Assembly (NCBI RefSeq): GCF_000426465.1
Contig: NZ_KE384527.1
Location: forward strand, 382,034-446,033
From: Epilithonimonas caeni DSM 17710
GTDB taxonomy: Bacteria > Bacteroidota > Bacteroidia > Flavobacteriales > Weeksellaceae
Direction of reading: 5' to 3'
Length of the DNA stretch: 64,000 nucleotides
Position 1 is the stretch's first letter. Every line of letters starts with the position of its first letter. Below are positions 32,884 through 56,172 of this stretch, in pieces. A program made the position numbers and the translations under genes. The notes under the pieces are model-generated. The model worked only from the letters and a program-made list of their open reading frames with translations, did no database searches and was not told the DNA's origin.

Positions 32884-34491
32884 ATGCATCATAATTTATT
32901 GTTGATACTTGCTTTACTTTTTTCTGTTTTCATGATGGTAATGGTAGCAAAAAAAATGAAGATCGCCTATCCTATTTTCTTGGTCTTAGCTGGATTAATA
33001 ATCAGTTTTCTGCCTGGAATCCCGGAGATAGAACTTGACCCCGAGCTGGTCTTCCTGATCTTTCTTCCACCATTACTTTACGAAGCCGCATGGTACACCT
33101 CCTGGAACGACTTCTGGAAATGGAAAAGACCAATTTCCTTATTGGCATTCGGGTTGGTTTTTGCAACCTCCTTGATTGTCGCTTATCTTTCCCAAGCAAT
33201 GATTCCGGGGTTTACATTAGCACTTGGTTTTCTATTAGGGGGCATTATTTCTCCACCAGATGCAGTTGCTGCAACATCCGTCCTTAAGGGATTGCCTGTC
33301 CCAAAGAGAATCGTAAGTATTCTGGAAGGTGAAAGCTTGGTCAATGATGCATCATCACTAATCGTTTTCCGATTTGCTTTGGCGGCTATACTGACCGGCA
33401 GCTTTTCTATGCATGAGGCTGTGGGACAGTTTTTTCTGGTAGCAGGAATGGGAATTGTGGTTGGATTGATCGGTGCTGGAATTATGTATCTTATTCATAG
33501 ATTTTTACCTACAACATCCGCTATTGACGCTGCATTGACGATAATGACACCTTACATGCTGTATCTAGGTGCGGAGCAATTTCATTTCTCCGGAGTGATG
33601 GCCGTGGTTACGGGTGGGCTTTTCATCTCCTACAGGTCCCATGAGATCTTCAAAAACGGAAATACCCGTCTTAATATGCTGGGGGTATGGACAACTGTTA
33701 TTTTTGTAATGAACGCCATGGTTTTCATTCTTATCGGGCTATCCCTTCCCTCTATCATTCATGGTCTGGAAGAGGCATCGTTGATAGAAGGTATCAAATA
33801 TGGCGTTATCATCAGTATTGTTGCTATTGCTATTCGTTTTTTATGGATCTATCCAGCTGCATTTGTTCCGAGATGGCTTTTCAAATCGGTGAGAAGAGAA
33901 CAATCTCCGGGCTGGAAAGGGCCACTTGTCATCGGCTGGGCAGGAATGAGGGGGGTTGTTTCACTTGCAACTGCACTTTCTATTCCTTTTACATTGGCAG
34001 ACGGAACAGCTTTTCCTCATAGAAACCTGATTCTATTTATAACATTCATCGTAATTTTTATAACATTGGTGATTCAGGGACTTACATTACCTTTTATTGT
34101 AAAAAAACTCGATATGCCATCCATGGATGTTGTCCTGCCGCAGGAACAACAGGAGGCTCAGATACAGATCAGATTGAATCGGCTTGCTCTCAGTCATATC
34201 AATACTAATTATTCTGATATCATTGACAAAAGCAATCTTTTGAAAAATTATCAAACTCAGATCTCTATTGAAACCGAGAATACAGAAAATCAGCTCGACC
34301 TTTTGGAATGTAACAATTGTACAACACAGGAGATTGATAAATTCTCCGAAATCCTTAAGGAAATCTACGACAAGCAAAGACTCGAGATCTTCCAAATGAG
34401 ACGCGAAAAGTACTATGACGATGAGGAAATCCGAAAAGCAGAATTACAGCTTGACCTGAACGATCTGAAAATAAATCCTAACTTCCATTAA
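32884..34491 (+). CDS. CPA1 family Na+(K+)/H+ antiporter
   Basis: 535 aa with about 12 hydrophobic segments in residues 1-410 and a hydrophilic helical tail (about 415-535). CPA1 hallmarks: FLPPLLYEAAW in the N-terminal half, SPPDAVAATSVLKGL, GESLVNDASSLIVFRFA (the ND pair that carries cations), and GWAGMRGVVSLATALSIPF. It should exchange Na+ or K+ for protons at the inner membrane. Which cation cannot be told. Single gene with its own terminator. Confidence 0.92.
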   Translation: MHHNLLLILALLFSVFMMVMVAKKMKIAYPIFLVLAGLIISFLPGIPEIELDPELVFLIFLPPLLYEAAWYTSWNDFWKWKRPISLLAFGLVFATSLIVAYLSQAMIPGFTLALGFLLGGIISPPDAVAATSVLKGLPVPKRIVSILEGESLVNDASSLIVFRFALAAILTGSFSMHEAVGQFFLVAGMGIVVGLIGAGIMYLIHRFLPTTSAIDAALTIMTPYMLYLGAEQFHFSGVMAVVTGGLFISYRSHEIFKNGNTRLNMLGVWTTVIFVMNAMVFILIGLSLPSIIHGLEEASLIEGIKYGVIISIVAIAIRFLWIYPAAFVPRWLFKSVRREQSPGWKGPLVIGWAGMRGVVSLATALSIPFTLADGTAFPHRNLILFITFIVIFITLVIQGLTLPFIVKKLDMPSMDVVLPQEQQEAQIQIRLNRLALSHINTNYSDIIDKSNLLKNYQTQISIETENTENQLDLLECNNCTTQEIDKFSEILKEIYDKQRLEIFQMRREKYYDDEEIRKAELQLDLNDLKINPNFH

Positions 34492-50095: not shown

Positions 50096-50132
50096 AAAAA
50101 ATGGTTCAAATAATAATTTGAACCATTTTTTT
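50094..50132. terminator. bidirectional terminator ending the carbonic-anhydrase operon
   Basis: AAAAAAATGGTTCAAA / TTTGAACCATTTTTTT, perfect stem; serves the plus-strand small gene and the minus-strand operon. Confidence 0.9.
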
Positions 50133-50865
50133 ACTGATAATATTCATCCATCAGACTTCTCCTCTCCTTTGTCTCCAGATCTATATACTCGAATTTCTTA
50201 TACTGGCAGAAAGATCCCATATCTTTATCACCATTGATAAAGATAGCCCCTACCAGAATCACATATTTACAAGGGTAATTTGTTTCTCGTACCAGAACCT
50301 CTATCCTGTCATCTATAGCTTCATACATTACCTCTGTAGCTTCAAATATTTGGTTTTCAGCAGTCATGATACGATTTTTCTGATGAAGGAAGATCTGCTC
50401 TATGGTATTCATCTGGAAATCAAGAGAGGTTATATTCCCCTCAATGATTTGATCATTTGCCAGTTTTCCTAATGCACCTTTCGCAGCGCCGCAACACGCA
50501 GAATTATCGGATTGTCCTATTCTGCTTATCTCACCAATAGTTCCATCTTTGGTAATTCCGATATGTGGTGCATAAAATATGATCACCGCTCCGTCTTCCG
50601 GAACATGATGGGCAAAGGCATTCATCCCCGTGATACCTGCAAATGGGTATCCGTCCAAACCTCCCAAATGAAAAGGTCCCAGCATCTCATATGCCCTTGG
50701 CGGATATTGTATGGCATTCACATCATCGCAACACATACTATCTGCATGCATGAGCTGATATGGTTTAAGACCTAAATGTTTTTCGATTGTATCTAAAAGA
50801 CGATTCACGGTATCAATAGACGTTAATGCTTGTGGATACCATTTTCTAACAGATTCTATACTCAT
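50131..50865 (-). CDS. LCIB/LCIC-type beta-carbonic anhydrase-like protein
   Basis: 244 aa, no signal peptide, so cytoplasmic. The body follows the LCIB/C carbonic anhydrase family: MCCDDVN (candidate zinc ligand C46 with D48), GLDGYPFAGITGMNAFAHH (H86 or H87), YAPHIGITKDGTIGEISR, and SACCGAAKGALGKL (C125). Two Cys and one His is the beta-class zinc set. Family members include the LCIB protein of the algal CO2-concentrating mechanism; some are active CO2 hydratases and some not. Last gene of the minus-strand run, 22 bp after a bestrophin-like channel gene. CO2/bicarbonate interconversion is inferred. Confidence 0.75.
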   Translation of the reverse strand: MSIESVRKWYPQALTSIDTVNRLLDTIEKHLGLKPYQLMHADSMCCDDVNAIQYPPRAYEMLGPFHLGGLDGYPFAGITGMNAFAHHVPEDGAVIIFYAPHIGITKDGTIGEISRIGQSDNSACCGAAKGALGKLANDQIIEGNITSLDFQMNTIEQIFLHQKNRIMTAENQIFEATEVMYEAIDDRIEVLVRETNYPCKYVILVGAIFINGDKDMGSFCQYKKFEYIDLETKERRSLMDEYYQ

Positions 50866-50887
50866 AATTTTGTTTGTGTTTTTTTAC

Positions 50888-51901
50888 TTACATTAAAATA
50901 TTATTATTTGGTTGTATTGCCGGAGGTAACTCTTTCTCTCCAAGCATTTCGCGCAAGTCTATTTCTATATTTCGGCTGATCTGTGTGATCGGAATATCGT
51001 TGGCACTTCCCTCAAATGGATTTTCTGTGCTCTCCCCTATCTGTTCCAATACAAGAAAAACCCAGCCCAGCAATACACTGAAAGGAACTACAAGCCAAAT
51101 GATATTCTCACCAAACTTTTCTATCATTTTTGAAATCTCTCCTATAAAACCCAGAGGTAACAATAAACAAAGTGCATTGGTAAAATAGAGATTGATGCTT
51201 GAGAACTGTCTTGGATAAGGGAAATTTTTGATACGCTCACATTTCCCTTGCTGATCATAAAGTTCTTTCAACTGATTTTCCAGAGCCACATAATTATAAT
51301 CTGATATCTTACCTTCTTGATTCAGTTTTCTGAGCTGTGAAGATTGTATAGCTATGATCTGTGTAGCCCTATTTTTTGTTGATAGGATATATTGTCTTTC
51401 TTCCTCATTAAGAAAAGTCTTCAACTCTTCATCCAGAGTACTTTCCCATTCAGGAACTTTGTAGTGTTTGAGATATTCCAGATTATAGCTTTTCGTTTTT
51501 ACATTTTCCCAGCTCTTGACCTCTCTTAACTGAAACCTCAGCGCAGTAAGCCAAGCAAAATGACGATAGATGATCTCTTGATGGATCTTAGCCTGATGTT
51601 CATCGTCCTCTCTCACAAAATCCTTCACCATTATACCAAAAGCCCGGCTGTTGTTGATGATCGCACCGTAGATCTGCCTCGCTTCCCAAGTCCTGTTATA
51701 GGTCTGTGTATTTTTAAACCCTGAAATGAAAGCTGTAGCAGTTCCCAACAACGCAACCGGCACCCAAGGAATAGCAAGCCACTTCCAGTCAAGGAAATAA
51801 AACAAAAGAGTCGGGATGATACTAAGAATAAGCATTTTATATATCTTAACCCTTGTCCAGGGAATAAAATGCTGAAGTTTATAGTGAGAACTTATATTCA
51901 T
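50888..51901 (-). CDS. bestrophin-like (UPF0187/RFP-TM) ion channel
   Basis: 337 aa. Four main membrane helices (about 24-38, 41-60, 232-252, 265-285) with the bestrophin family sequences WVPVALLGTATAFISGFKN, NRTWEARQIYGAIINNSR and, after the last helix, ENPFEGSANDIPITQISRNI followed by IEIDLREMLGE. Eukaryotic bestrophins pass chloride and bicarbonate; at least one studied bacterial homologue prefers cations, so selectivity is open. Start 6 bp after the K+-channel-like gene stop and 22 bp before the carbonic-anhydrase gene. Confidence 0.88.
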   Translation of the reverse strand: MNISSHYKLQHFIPWTRVKIYKMLILSIIPTLLFYFLDWKWLAIPWVPVALLGTATAFISGFKNTQTYNRTWEARQIYGAIINNSRAFGIMVKDFVREDDEHQAKIHQEIIYRHFAWLTALRFQLREVKSWENVKTKSYNLEYLKHYKVPEWESTLDEELKTFLNEEERQYILSTKNRATQIIAIQSSQLRKLNQEGKISDYNYVALENQLKELYDQQGKCERIKNFPYPRQFSSINLYFTNALCLLLPLGFIGEISKMIEKFGENIIWLVVPFSVLLGWVFLVLEQIGESTENPFEGSANDIPITQISRNIEIDLREMLGEKELPPAIQPNNNILM

Positions 51902-51907
51902 ATAAAA

Positions 51908-52576
51908 TTAATTTTTGGATGAAAATTTACTAATTAAAATCCCAACCAGCACAACTGTGTAAAATTGTCCGCTTATGCCGATAAAAGCTGTTATTAATTT
52001 AGTAATATGCATATTCGGAGTAATATCTCCAAAACCGATGCTGGTGAAGGTTATAGAACAAAAATATACCAAATCAATGAAAATGCTGGCAGGTGATGAA
52101 GTGTCAATTCCTTTAAAAGACTGGGGATTATGATATTCAAAGGTTTGTAATAAGAATGTTGAAATTTCTATCAATAAAAAATAACCACATACCGATGCAG
52201 AAATAATATCGCTATTAATGTATCCGGGCCTTAACAAAAAACGAAGTAACTCTAAAAACAGAAATACAAAAAATATGACATAATTAATATTAAGAAAAGT
52301 AAAATACCAAGGTATATCTTTGAAAAAAGGAATTCCTATAGGCAACAACAATACAATTATAAAATGAATATTGCGAAACCAATGACGCCACCCCATCTTT
52401 CCCGTAAATATAAAAATACTTCCCAACCCCAATAACAACATATTGACCGGCCATATGACCCGTGTATAAAAATCTAGGTCCGTAAGGAAAATCCCTACAA
52501 ATAGATGTTGTATCAATGCTAAAAGCAATAGCTCGTACTTTCTTTTACTCAGACGATCTAATACCACTCTGCTCAT
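51908..52576 (-). CDS. K+-channel-like membrane protein
   Basis: 222 aa with about six or seven hydrophobic segments. The last two flank a pore loop with the selectivity filter TSIGFGD (YFCSITFTSIGFGDITPNMH), the GFG variant of the K+ filter. There is no Arg-rich voltage sensor like that of Kv channels and no C-terminal RCK domain (ends ILISKFSSKN). It should pass K+ across the inner membrane as a tetramer. Packed between an aldehyde dehydrogenase gene (11 bp) and the bestrophin gene (6 bp). Confidence 0.85.
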   Translation of the reverse strand: MSRVVLDRLSKRKYELLLLALIQHLFVGIFLTDLDFYTRVIWPVNMLLLGLGSIFIFTGKMGWRHWFRNIHFIIVLLLPIGIPFFKDIPWYFTFLNINYVIFFVFLFLELLRFLLRPGYINSDIISASVCGYFLLIEISTFLLQTFEYHNPQSFKGIDTSSPASIFIDLVYFCSITFTSIGFGDITPNMHITKLITAFIGISGQFYTVVLVGILISKFSSKN

Positions 52577-52587
52577 ACAATCAGTAA

Positions 52588-53964
52588 CTATCCAAAAACA
52601 CTTAGATTTTTAGCAATATCTTTTCCTGCATAAGGAGGGAAAACATCCAGCTCCAGGTCGGGATTGCCTATTAGCATCGCTTTGGTATTGCTTAAAGCAT
52701 CAAACCCAGCTTTTCCATAGTATTTCCCCATTCCAGCATAGCCTACACCCCCAAATGGCAGGCTATCTATCCAGCAATGCAGATTGGTTTGATTGATACA
52801 GCCTCCTCCAAAAGACACCGAATTCAGAAAATAATCTATATTGGATTGATCTTTACTAAAGAAATATGCAGCCAAAGACTTCGGCTTACGCTTAATTATC
52901 TCGACTATTTCTTTCAGATCATTATAAACCAAAACAGGAAATACAGGACCAAAGATCTCTTGCTGCATGGCCGGGTCATCCCAAGTACTAGGATATAAAA
53001 TAGTAGGTTCCACATATCTGTCTTTTATATCATATCGCCCTCCCAGAACTACTTTCTCAGGAATGATATATGAAGCGACCCTTTCTGTATCATGCTCGCT
53101 GATCATCCTTGCAAAATCGGGACTTTGTTGTGGATCTGTACCATACATTTTTGCGACGGCCGCTTTCAGCTTATCAAGAAACTGACCGGCAATATTCTCA
53201 TGAACGTAAACATAGCCCGGAGCAATGCACCATTGCCCTGAAATAGCCATATGCCCCCAAGCAATACGGTCTGCAGCAATATCCAGGTTGGCTGTCTCAT
53301 CTACCACAGTTGGGTTCTGTCCCCCTAGTTCCAGAATGACAGGTGTAAGATTTTCGGCAGCTGCACGCATTACAACCTTGCCGACCGCAGAGCTCCCGGT
53401 GAAAAAAATAAAATCAAAAGGAAGCTGCAACAACTCTGTGATCTCCTCTCTTCCGCCAGTAACTATATTAACAGCTTCCGGTTCAAAGTATTTAGGAATC
53501 AGCTCCTGAAAGAGAGCGGCAACGGTAGGCGTCGTATTTGCAGGTTTGAGAATGACAGGATTCCCCGCCGCCAATGCTGCAATAGCCGGATCTAATAACA
53601 ACAATATAGGCGCGTTGAATGGTCCTATGACCAATGTAACACCGTAAGGCTCTTTATATATGATTCCTTTGTTGCCCGTTTCTTCCAATCCTCTAGGTAT
53701 TGCCACTTGTTCAGGAGACATCAGGCTTTTTAAATTTTCTCTATAATACTTTATATTACCTAACGGAACAGTGATCTCGAAAAGTTGTTCAAACGGAGGC
53801 TTGTTAAAATCTGCCTTCAGTGCTTGGCAAAAAACCTCCTGATTATCCGTAAGCATTTTTTCCAATCTGTCAAGCTGATCGATCCTCCATTCGTAAGTTT
53901 TGGAAACATCTGTATAAAAAAACTCTTTTTGTTGGTCGAATATGGTTTGATAATTATTCATCAT
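52588..53964 (-). CDS. aldehyde dehydrogenase (class 3-like)
   Basis: 458 aa, the short length typical of ALDH3 / coniferyl-aldehyde-type enzymes. General base Glu in VILELGGQNPTVVDE, catalytic Cys in ISGQWCIAPGYVYVHE, Rossmann-type FFTGSSAVGKVVM and the ending PFGGVGYAGMGKYYGKAGFD. It oxidises an aldehyde to the acid with NAD(P)+. A medium- or long-chain or aromatic substrate is likely but cannot be read. The third residue before the Cys is Trp-type (GQWC) rather than the common GQTC or GQIC. Confidence 0.92.
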   Translation of the reverse strand: MMNNYQTIFDQQKEFFYTDVSKTYEWRIDQLDRLEKMLTDNQEVFCQALKADFNKPPFEQLFEITVPLGNIKYYRENLKSLMSPEQVAIPRGLEETGNKGIIYKEPYGVTLVIGPFNAPILLLLDPAIAALAAGNPVILKPANTTPTVAALFQELIPKYFEPEAVNIVTGGREEITELLQLPFDFIFFTGSSAVGKVVMRAAAENLTPVILELGGQNPTVVDETANLDIAADRIAWGHMAISGQWCIAPGYVYVHENIAGQFLDKLKAAVAKMYGTDPQQSPDFARMISEHDTERVASYIIPEKVVLGGRYDIKDRYVEPTILYPSTWDDPAMQQEIFGPVFPVLVYNDLKEIVEIIKRKPKSLAAYFFSKDQSNIDYFLNSVSFGGGCINQTNLHCWIDSLPFGGVGYAGMGKYYGKAGFDALSNTKAMLIGNPDLELDVFPPYAGKDIAKNLSVFG

Positions 53965-53979
53965 CTGTATTTTTAAAGA

Positions 53980-54393
53980 TTAATTAGCTTGGCCAATATC
54001 TAAGCGATCGAATTTTCCCTCAGTATTCTGATGAAACTTAAAGAAAACCTTAAATGTACCCCATTTTCCAGCTTTGAAATTTCCATAGACATCTTTACCA
54101 TCATTCTCAACTTTATCAATGCTAAGAAATTTTTCCTCTCCCAAAGCTTTTGCGAAGAATGATTTGAAATCAACCTTATTACCATCATCGGTCATTGTAG
54201 GATTTTCCGTAAAGTAAGAGTACCAGCTTTTGTCTCCGTTTTCTAAAGCTTCAACGGCTTTTTTTACAGTCTCATTTGTTATTTTGTTGTAGTCCATTAT
54301 TTGTTGTTTTTGATTTGCAATTGTTTTTTCAGTTTTTTGCGCACATGTCGAAATGGTAAAACCTATTATCAGCATAAAAGATAAAAGTCTCAT
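53980..54393 (-). CDS. exported NTF2-like (SnoaL-like) small protein
   Basis: 137 aa. Signal peptide about 1-19 (MRLLSFMLIIGFTISTCAQ), possibly a lipoprotein because Cys17 follows IST, though that lipobox is weak. The mature part fits an NTF2/SnoaL cone fold: VKKAVEALENGDKSWYSYF, then SFFAKALGEEKFLSIDKVEN and GTFKVFFKFHQNTEGKFDRL. No catalytic residues assigned. The ATG overlaps the upstream DoxX-like stop by 4 bp (ATGA), so translation is coupled; the ALDH gene follows after 15 bp. Confidence 0.75.
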   Translation of the reverse strand: MRLLSFMLIIGFTISTCAQKTEKTIANQKQQIMDYNKITNETVKKAVEALENGDKSWYSYFTENPTMTDDGNKVDFKSFFAKALGEEKFLSIDKVENDGKDVYGNFKAGKWGTFKVFFKFHQNTEGKFDRLDIGQAN

Positions 54394-54749
54394 GATAAAA
54401 AGCCATCTTTGAAAGGGTGTTGCAGGTAGATGATGATCAGATTCAGTAATAAAAATGGTAATTCGATCATTACTCCTTTCAGATCTTTATCTATCAGGTG
54501 GAAGCAGATAATCAAGAGAATCCCGGCAGCCATGATAAAATTGCCCCAGACAAATGTTTTCGGGAAAATCAGCATAATAGCAGCAATCATTGTAACAGCA
54601 CCGTTAACAGCCAATCCCGTCCTGGAAAATCCCCATTTGCTGAACATCTCCATCATCTCCGCTTTACCAGAGAACATAGCGAACCCTTGCTTAACTCCCA
54701 TGAACAGTGCGACAAGAATCAATATAGAGTTAATGATTTTCAGTATCAT
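54390..54749 (-). CDS. DoxX-like four-helix membrane protein
   Basis: 119 aa, four hydrophobic helices (about 5-24, 45-62, 68-86, 93-110), typical of DoxX-like small membrane proteins. An early GVKQGFAMFSGKAEMMEMF loop resembles the family. Role in this organism unknown; relatives are linked to thiol or redox stress. Overlaps the next gene by 4 bp and follows the SDR gene by 91 bp. Confidence 0.72.
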   Translation of the reverse strand: MILKIINSILILVALFMGVKQGFAMFSGKAEMMEMFSKWGFSRTGLAVNGAVTMIAAIMLIFPKTFVWGNFIMAAGILLIICFHLIDKDLKGVMIELPFLLLNLIIIYLQHPFKDGFLS

Positions 54750-54840: not shown

Positions 54841-55596
54841 TTACCTGGTAGTGTAACCACCATTAGCAAAGATCGTTTGACCAGTGATCCACCAACCTTC
54901 TGTTACCAAGAACTCTACCAACGGGGCAATATCCTTGATGTCTGTCAAACCTCCTAAAGCTGCTGCAGATTTATGATAAGCTACAGCATCGTCGCTTTCC
55001 TGACCATAGAAAAAAGGTGTATCCATAGGACCAGGCGCAACCGCCGTTACGGAAATCCCTCTGCTTCCAAATTCTTTAGAAGCCGCTCTTGTGAAATGCT
55101 CTACAGGGGCTTTTGCACCGGCATAGGTAGAATAAAGTCCTGTATAAGCCGCCAATAAAGAAGTTACAATCGTACAGATCTTACCATTGTCGTTCAGTTT
55201 TTTCCCAGCTTCTTGCAAAAAGAAATAGGCTGACTTGGAATTAACCCCGAACATGGTATCATATTCTGCTTCAGTAGTCTCTGTAAATGGCTTCTTAAGT
55301 ACCATCCCAACAGTATTAATAGCGATATCGATACCTCCGAACCTAGCAATAGTCTCATCAAAGAATTTGGTGATATTTTCTACCTTGGTCAAGTCTCCTT
55401 GAAACAAAAATGCCTCTGCTCCCAAAGCCTGAACTTCTGCTAAGGTTTTCTCACTTTCCGCTTTAGAACTTTCGCTGTTGTAGTGTATCGCCAATTTAGC
55501 TCCTTTTGCAGCAAAATCTTTACTTAATAATCCACCAAGGTTTTTCCCGCCCCCGGCAATTAAAACAACTTTACCTTTTACATCTTGTGTTGACAT
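54841..55596 (-). CDS. short-chain dehydrogenase/reductase
   Basis: 251 aa, classical SDR length. The nucleotide-binding motif reads LIAGGGKNLGGLL rather than TGxxxGIG. Active-site residues: Ser in CTIVTSLLAAY and the YxxxK pair in YAGAKAPVEHF. GVNSKSAYFF carries the structural Asn, and APGPMDTPFFYG and the ending ITGQTIFANGGYTTR are standard. NAD(P)-dependent oxidoreductase of an alcohol or carbonyl, substrate unknown. First enzyme gene after the AraC regulator, with candidate operators just upstream. Confidence 0.92.
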   Translation of the reverse strand: MSTQDVKGKVVLIAGGGKNLGGLLSKDFAAKGAKLAIHYNSESSKAESEKTLAEVQALGAEAFLFQGDLTKVENITKFFDETIARFGGIDIAINTVGMVLKKPFTETTEAEYDTMFGVNSKSAYFFLQEAGKKLNDNGKICTIVTSLLAAYTGLYSTYAGAKAPVEHFTRAASKEFGSRGISVTAVAPGPMDTPFFYGQESDDAVAYHKSAAALGGLTDIKDIAPLVEFLVTEGWWITGQTIFANGGYTTR

Positions 55597-55663: not shown

Positions 55664-55714
55664 TTTTCGGAATATAGAAGAATTTCGGAAATTATTACAT
55701 CTTTTTCCGAAATT
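55664..55714. promoter_or_regulatory. TTTCGGAA repeats: candidate AraC operator
   Basis: TTTCGGAA occurs as a direct repeat at 55665-55672 and 55683-55690 (18-bp period). The second copy forms a perfect 11-bp inverted repeat with 55704-55714 (AATTTCGGAAA / TTTCCGAAATT, 12-nt spacer) that spans the stop of the AraC gene. No T-run follows, so it is less likely a terminator than a binding site in front of the SDR gene. Confidence 0.5.
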
Positions 55715-56063
55715 CACCAGGTGTCATTCCCGTCCATTTCTTAAAGAATTTGGAAAAATTAGAAGGGTCGTAAGTTAATGATAAAGAAACATTTGCAATA
55801 GAGACTTTTTTGTCTTTTAAAAGTTCTTTTGCCATAAGAATTATTTTTTCATCATAAAAATGGCATGGATGTTCTCCTGTTTCTTTTCGTATCGTATCTG
55901 TCAAATGTTGATGGGAAATCGCCAACTCGGATGCAATTTGATTAAGCTCCATGAACTCCAAAACTCTTCCATTGACAACATCATTGATATGCTGATCTAA
56001 AAATTGGAAATATTTGGTTGTAATTTCTTTACTTCTAGAATTGATCTGAGAATTATTTTTCAT
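55695..56063 (-). CDS. small AraC-family transcriptional regulator
   Basis: 122 aa, essentially only the DNA-binding domain: first HTH at about 38-60 (MELNQIASELAISHQHLTDT), second at about 88-110 (SIANVSLSLTYDPSNFSKFF), ending KKWTGMTPGEFRKKM. No ligand domain is present; the N-terminal 30 residues are helical. It lies 98 bp upstream of the SDR gene on the same strand and is the likely regulator of the SDR-to-carbonic-anhydrase run and perhaps of itself. Confidence 0.88.
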   Translation of the reverse strand: MKNNSQINSRSKEITTKYFQFLDQHINDVVNGRVLEFMELNQIASELAISHQHLTDTIRKETGEHPCHFYDEKIILMAKELLKDKKVSIANVSLSLTYDPSNFSKFFKKWTGMTPGEFRKKM

Positions 56064-56137: not shown

Positions 56138-56172
56138 CAAAAAAGCCCTCTAATATAAATTAAAGGGCTTTA
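56138..56172 (-). terminator. terminator of the histone H1-like gene
   Basis: Minus-strand AAAGCCCT / AGGGCTTT with a T-run, about 40 bp past the stop at 56213. Confidence 0.8.

Follow-up and report, generated by a model that had tools for sequence, protein, structure and literature searches.

Why should a heterotrophic bacterium carry, side by side, genes for an LCIB/C-type carbonic anhydrase, a bestrophin, and a K+-channel-like protein? The genes lie on the minus strand of a 64,000-nucleotide stretch of Epilithonimonas caeni DSM 17710 (contig NZ_KE384527.1, positions 382,034 to 446,033), referred to here as the window, and encode an LCIB/C-type beta-carbonic anhydrase of 244 amino acids (aa) without a hydrophobic segment (50131..50865), a bestrophin of 337 aa (50888..51901), and a K+-channel-like protein of 222 aa (51908..52576). 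The favored answer is that the three form one pH-control module that loads the cytoplasm with acid by exporting KHCO3, a reading to which a probability of roughly 0.4 is attached; a functional link of any kind is more likely than this specific mechanism. An earlier reading made from the DNA letters (the sequence-only reading) had already suggested such a functional module, which is still the most probable cause of the linkage; its family assignments, and a conserved neighborhood in related genomes, are likewise upheld below.

The open reading frames (ORFs) are exactly where they had been placed, separated in the ORF list by 22 bp (LCIB/bestrophin) and 6 bp (bestrophin/K+-channel gene), and each product scores above the curated Pfam cut-off of the family proposed for it. 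This spacing suggests one joint transcript, and the trio probably also functions jointly. Two elements of the sequence-only reading have to be given up: the genes are adjacent ORFs rather than fused, and the tight run is not confined to three genes, as it extends on the same strand through genes for an aldehyde dehydrogenase (ALDH), a small protein, a DoxX-like protein, an SDR oxidoreductase, and an AraC-type protein. Among the best 120 of 5590 matches to a joined query there is no natural bestrophin-LCIB fusion, in a search that scored the 7997 candidates sharing most words with that query.

The three proteins of the run

As judged by sequence, modeled fold, and active-site residues, the protein of 50131..50865 belongs to the LCIB/C carbonic anhydrase family, and the earlier assignment thus stands. 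The hidden Markov model search places it well inside the family (PF18599, LCIB_C_CA; 226.4 bits, cut-off 25, E 3.4e-67, model positions 3-223 of 223), and its eight PDB sequence matches are all LCIB-family chains, including PtLCIB4 and the LCIB and LCIC entries 5k5w and 5b5x. In a structure search with an AlphaFold2 (AF2) model (pLDDT 81), each of the eight PDB chains reached at E<=1e-3 likewise belongs to the LCIB family (TMq of 0.77 to 5b5y_A and 0.79 to 6kfs), and ordinary beta-carbonic anhydrases rank far below these; loops 46-50, 66-74, and 121-123 of the model, near active-site residues, have pLDDT under 50. Residues C45, D47, H87, H101, R115, and C125 do not vary among 79 close rows (one of them that of the window), 17 distant rows from Bacteroidota, and three LCIB-family chains of solved structure, and presumably include the zinc ligands and an Asp-Arg pair. 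Loci L061 and L098, which have no LCIB ORF over 200 aa, are absent from the alignment and tree, and L104-L106 are in the alignment and in neither tallied group. Loss of a catalytic Arg at position 51 (Ala or Ser, with Arg in PtLCIB4, 6kfs, and 9w05) was considered and rejected, because this position also varies in distant Bacteroidota LCIBs while R115 is constant in every tallied row.

The protein would be expected to hydrate CO2, but family membership is no proof of activity, because Chlamydomonas LCIB and LCIC, according to Jin et al. (cited in PMC8825250), are inactive as carbonic anhydrases in vitro. The same finding speaks for a noncatalytic LCIB that would attach to the bestrophin and serve as a gate-keeper or as a sensor of CO2/bicarbonate. 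This has only a slight chance of being right, as no variation is seen at the presumed zinc-binding and catalytic residues, position 46, next to the first Cys, is occupied by Cys or Ser (Ser also in PtLCIB4) and not by Arg as in the S47R construct of PtLCIB4, and diatom PtLCIB3 and PtLCIB4 are reported (PMC9614477) to appear constitutively active.

The bestrophin matches PF25539 (Bestrophin_2) with 156.4 bits (cut-off 27), and its closest solved chains are 4wd7 and related bacterial bestrophins, with E from 2e-27. Alignment with 4wd7 gives the neck as T54-F58-F62; this Thr-Phe-Phe neck agrees with animal bestrophins in its middle and last residues, and its first is polar where a bestrophin would be expected to have a hydrophobic residue. 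All 65 LCIB-linked bestrophins examined (that of the window, 63 from named-genome loci, and one from the phylum-sample follow-up) have the middle Phe (61 TFF and 4 IFF), compared with 7 of 20 unlinked ones, which were hand-chosen rather than randomly drawn. The 4wd7 chain, which we take to be KpBest, is from the same superfamily and has an Ile-Ile-Phe neck. This is the neck that PMC8496536 gives for KpBest, a Na+ channel in which replacement of the middle Ile by Phe (I66F) shifts conduction in favor of Cl-; human bestrophin 1 becomes less permeable to Cl- when the opposite substitution is made. KpBest thus differs from the window protein in both neck and reported Na+ conduction. In Methylobacterium, a bacterial bestrophin mutation was selected alongside mutations thought to raise Cl- efflux, according to PMC4271186, whose authors term bacterial bestrophins uncharacterized. 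The window bestrophin may therefore be of an anion-conducting type, with bicarbonate the putative ion and outward flow the predicted direction.

The K+-channel-like protein has seven hydrophobic stretches, including the pore region, and matches PF07885 (Ion_trans_2) with 39.7 bits (cut-off 22.5). The pore region aligns with that of SK2, and in strict register the selectivity filter is SIGFGD (SIGYGD in SK2) rather than TxGFGD; the pore family and K+ filter type originally proposed are upheld. All 32 relatives have an [S/T]IG[F/Y]GD filter, which is SIGFGD in 30. The protein is putatively K+ selective. Its AF2 model is poor (pLDDT 49) and was discarded as evidence.

Conservation of the LCIB-bestrophin neighborhood

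The linkage was evaluated in the best 80 of 248 LCIB loci in named genomes, a set skewed towards close relatives, with record titles naming Bacteroidota in all but one, which reads only "bacterium". A same-strand bestrophin lies within 700 bp of LCIB in 65 of these 80 loci from other genomes and is a full-length ORF in 62, the others being a broken gene (L053), a gene at a contig end (L069), and a 38-aa remnant (L077). Two further loci (L033 and L049) have a full bestrophin at about 1 kb, such that a full same-strand bestrophin is present within about 1 kb in 64 of 80 loci and pieces in three more. One locus (L061) has no called LCIB ORF in the gene-neighbor listing, which covers 79 of the 80, and is counted in the 80-locus tally. 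Linkage is seen in 34 of 37 loci at 70% or greater LCIB identity and in 31 of 43 below this. The E. caeni genome (4.1 Mb) has only four Bestrophin_2 matches and a single LCIB, and pairing in 65 of 80 loci is therefore above chance.

The gene order is mostly bestrophin then LCIB and is reversed in four loci (L057, L067, L072, and L097); the bestrophins of L067, L072, and L097 form a separate clade on the other side of LCIB, with an IFF neck. On an LCIB tree of 99 rows, with unsettled bootstrap support, bestrophin adjacency needs 11 changes, compared with 26.3 in shuffles; on the bestrophin tree the label "linked" needs 4, compared with 18.3.

In a sample of the host family, 10 of 148 genomes have an LCIB over the cut-off (G140 falls below it and was excluded), and in seven of these, E. 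caeni among them, the order is K+-channel gene, bestrophin, LCIB. LCIB stands by itself in two, and the other is G007. The G007 genome (1.6 Mb, 83% complete) carries an apparently decayed copy (L020, 7579-8943), in which the K+-channel gene is accompanied by a short LCIB and by the remnant of a bestrophin, which matches over 48 aa.

A recurrent third partner

A K+-channel gene is near LCIB in 32 of the 80 loci, in 31 with a bestrophin ORF beside it and in one with the L077 remnant. In 11 others its slot is occupied by a gene for a CPA1 Na+/H+ antiporter of about 535 aa, always in the order antiporter-bestrophin-LCIB, and none of the 80 loci has both. The antiporters were identified with PF00999 in L036 and L054 (TIGR00831 is also over its cut-off in L036) and in the remaining nine by tblastn to L036 (76-84%); the ORF is interrupted in L033 and L041. 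Of the 65 linked bestrophins, 33 adjoin a K+-channel gene, nine an antiporter gene, and 23 neither, and the swap requires three changes on the bestrophin tree with two states only, and 12 if "neither" is included as a third. K+ had been proposed as the counter-ion; this fits the 33 bestrophins with a K+-channel gene and thus one version of the module only.

In two Spirosoma loci LCIB adjoins a membrane pyrophosphatase, identified by Pfam and NCBIfam in L092 and by tblastn in L098. Together with the swap, these loci indicate that a cation or proton mover is a recurrent third partner. In both, LCIB is directly behind the H+/Na+ pyrophosphatase gene; the product of this gene in L092 (5089-7848) ends in an OmpA domain, and L098 has its LCIB reading frame broken into two parts.

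Movement between genomes

In comparisons of the window with two distant hosts, the three proteins are more alike than is RpoB. Those of the window and Chitinophaga polysaccharea (L028) share 88% (LCIB), 83% (bestrophin), and 77% (K+-channel protein) identity, with RpoB at 69%, and the corresponding values for Sphingobacterium GVS05A are 86, 82, and 77%, with RpoB at 73%. The reverse is seen with Chryseobacterium ZHDP1, with RpoB at 93% but LCIB at 67% and bestrophin at 55%. LCIB identity exceeds RpoB identity in nine of the 13 genomes compared, which were hand-picked rather than randomly drawn. The C. polysaccharea and GVS05A bestrophins fall inside Chryseobacterium rows of the tree with high support, and within the host genus LCIB is present in two of 21 sampled genomes. 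On this evidence from protein comparisons, the block appears to be passed horizontally, as a unit, among genomes of Bacteroidota. No LCIB match was found in 72,556 plasmid records, where the best bestrophin match is 41%.

Such mobility could by itself account for the linkage, with the bestrophin, LCIB, and channel having separate roles (for example, in osmotic or membrane-potential control) and being linked through co-travel only; the changes in accessory genes between loci, and the 13 of 80 LCIB loci with no bestrophin trace within about 1 kb, fit this. It is nonetheless quite improbable, as the pairing holds down to 39-43% bestrophin identity, on both sides of LCIB, and in separate bestrophin clades, and the K+-channel gene is beside a bestrophin ORF in 31 of 32 loci, with a remnant in the other.

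A possible acid-loading module

In the proposed mechanism, CO2 would enter the cell or arise inside it freely and be hydrated by LCIB in the cytoplasm to bicarbonate and a proton. The bestrophin, as a passive anion channel, would release the bicarbonate from the inside-negative cell, with charge balanced by K+ efflux through the K+-channel-like protein. Net KHCO3 efflux with free CO2 entry would amount to K+ leaving and H+ being kept, acidifying the cytoplasm, and such an acid load could be useful at high external pH, where an over-alkaline cytoplasm would be avoided. The version with a Na+/H+ antiporter would load acid by another route, and the mutual exclusion of K+-channel and antiporter genes at one slot would follow, since both load acid. 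The direction of flow is an argument from general electrochemistry rather than from computation. LCIB need not be a housekeeping carbonic anhydrase, because two ordinary beta-carbonic anhydrases are encoded elsewhere in the genome.

A fuller version of this proposal is doubtful. In it, the three proteins would be assembled at the membrane into a carbonic anhydrase complex for KHCO3 export, the bestrophin being of the anion type and the third protein a K+ channel. This CO2-driven acid loader would move horizontally, be interchangeable with the antiporter version, and reproduce the algal LCIB-bestrophin partnership with the same sidedness in heterotrophic bacteria.

Three roles had been suggested from the sequence alone: pH homeostasis, bicarbonate supply to carboxylases, and CO2 retention. 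The antiporter swap favors the first. The other two fit badly, because bicarbonate would be expected to leak out through a passive anion channel when the membrane is negative inside and because RuBisCO is absent: PF00016 has no match in the genome, with five of 14 control genomes positive in the same search. Similarly, there is no match to DabA (PF10070), for which two of the 14 controls are positive, and the genome has two ordinary beta-carbonic anhydrases. A small CO2-concentrating device, with LCIB and bestrophin bringing or holding bicarbonate for carboxylases, is therefore unlikely, and it is the weaker reading compared with acid loading. It draws on the algal mechanism, which the same two families serve (PMC6708349 and PMC13159521), and on a heterotroph that depends in air on the bicarbonate-concentrating MpsAB (PMC6689103); however, as presented in PMC13159521, the algal bestrophin is thought to remove bicarbonate from the compartment of LCIB.

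Points against acid loading

Apart from the in vitro inactivity of the algal proteins and the 13 loci without a bestrophin, several observations weigh against an acid-loading module. The first concerns more distant LCIBs. In a phylum sample, 34 of 345 genomes have an LCIB, and in 29 of the 34 it is a distant one. The 17 distant LCIBs that were fetched (L107-L123; 27-40% identical), mostly from one Bacteroidota family (f23), have no bestrophin among their neighboring genes, and Bestrophin_2 matches anywhere in the genome are found in only one of the 29. The neighborhood retrieval left out 14 of the 34 genomes, namely, G000 and G082, which were already known, and 12 of f23; among these 12, only G211 has a Bestrophin_2 match, and their LCIBs are classed as distant by bit score, all being under 200, whereas each of the five close LCIBs scores at least 225. 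A bestrophin adjoins three of these five. Since the distant LCIBs fetched have no bestrophin neighbor and the close ones are mostly paired, the pairing belongs to one LCIB subfamily. The conserved neighborhood that had been expected thus holds for the close LCIBs (65 of 80 loci) and is not general for those of Bacteroidota.

The second group of observations concerns the ions. On the bestrophin tree, the seven unlinked bestrophins with a Phe neck fall next to the linked ones or among them, and the Phe neck is therefore a marker of a clade rather than of linkage, although most sampled members of this clade are LCIB partners. Moreover, 23 of the 65 linked bestrophins have neither cation-moving gene alongside. 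The window also contains a stand-alone CPA1-type antiporter gene (32884..34491, plus strand; PF00999 match, ORF, and BLASTP to the L036 antiporter) that is outside the run and whose product is 67% identical to the L036 module antiporter; because this subfamily also stands alone in the same genome, which has six Na+/H+ exchanger matches in all, the place of the antiporter in other modules could be loose. Lastly, the ALDH, SDR, and DoxX genes of the run are not accounted for by pH control alone.

Relation to known systems

Each family is known already; the bacterial linkage and the channel/antiporter swap appear to be the new part, and would represent a carbonic anhydrase with ion-conducting partners built from other parts than DAB/MpsAB. 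No report of either appears among the open-licence PMC papers listed in the searches. Carbonic anhydrases also work with bicarbonate transport in the animal metabolon, and K+ efflux through Kef-type systems acidifies the cytoplasm, but the transporter families are unrelated, and we know of no comparable gene run in either.

A close parallel is the green-algal CO2-concentrating mechanism, in which Chlamydomonas LCIB/LCIC and BST1-3 are from the same two families. By the current view, as given in PMC13159521, algal LCIB is in the stroma and the bestrophin faces the lumen. By a general topology argument, the cytoplasm of the bacterium is equivalent to the stroma and its periplasm to the lumen, and LCIB would therefore produce bicarbonate in the same compartment that the bestrophin empties of it. 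The bacterium differs in that the genes are linked in one run, a K+-channel or Na+/H+ antiporter gene is included, and there is no RuBisCO.

DAB2/MpsAB (DabA-DabB) similarly combines a zinc beta-carbonic anhydrase-like protein with an ion-conducting membrane partner in bacteria, as described in PMC13144422 and PMC6689103. However, it pairs PF10070 with PF00361, E. caeni has no DabA match, and CO2 hydration is proposed there to be coupled to proton flow, whereas the partner here is of a channel family.

Algal LCIB biochemistry is unsettled, the proteins being inactive in vitro (PMC8825250), and a bacterial pair kept across relatives in the phylum offers a genetically simple system for asking whether LCIB hands bicarbonate over to the bestrophin, in what direction, and with which cation as charge compensation. 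The pH reading lends itself to a direct test through the swap of K+-channel and antiporter genes. If its fuller version is correct, the algal LCIB-bestrophin partnership is present, ready-wired and with the same sidedness, in heterotrophic bacteria.

Accessory genes and other features

Upstream of the K+-channel gene, and also on the minus strand, are five accessory genes. The ALDH gene (52588..53964; PF00171, 288 bits) is 11 bp away and is followed at 15 bp by a gene for a small unnamed protein of 137 aa (53980..54393), which has no Pfam or NCBIfam match and resembles SnoaL/NTF2 by eye only. This overlaps by 4 bp the gene for a DoxX-like membrane protein (54390..54749; PF13564), and spacings of 91 bp and 98 bp lead to the SDR oxidoreductase (54841..55596; NF009385, 442 bits, cut-off 296) and a short AraC-type DNA-binding protein (55695..56063; PF12833/PF00165), a possible regulator whose gene is taken here as the upstream limit of the run. 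Relatives at a minimum of 40% identity are within 6.5 kb of LCIB in 10 (ALDH), 19 (SDR), 30 (DoxX-like), and 14 (AraC-type) of the 80 loci, and relatives of the small protein are near LCIB in 25, accompanying DoxX and LCIB.

These genes make an aldehyde-stress reading a serious rival to acid loading. The eight genes would form an AraC-controlled operon against aldehydes or other electrophiles, in which K+ and bicarbonate efflux acidifies the cytoplasm protectively, as K+ efflux systems do in Escherichia coli, and ALDH and SDR remove the aldehyde. The close same-strand spacing and the recurrence of the accessory genes near LCIB are in its favor, and the ALDH matches a benzaldehyde dehydrogenase model, although below its cut-off. 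It too is unlikely, since the trio occurs without the accessory genes in L015/L024 (one genome), and bestrophin-LCIB pairs without them are common, the pair being constant and the accessories varying.

A terminator-like hairpin of 13 pairs with a T tail (56142..56171, minus strand) may mark the boundary between the run and the preceding gene, but it is weak evidence, because the consensus scan finds five such sites in the region, near the 4.1 expected from shuffles. Between the host and Epilithonimonas hungarica, RpoB identity is 99.8%. In three Pedobacter loci (L091, L094, and L095), related genes are located behind LCIB, and the L091 gene matches 3-keto-disaccharide hydrolase.

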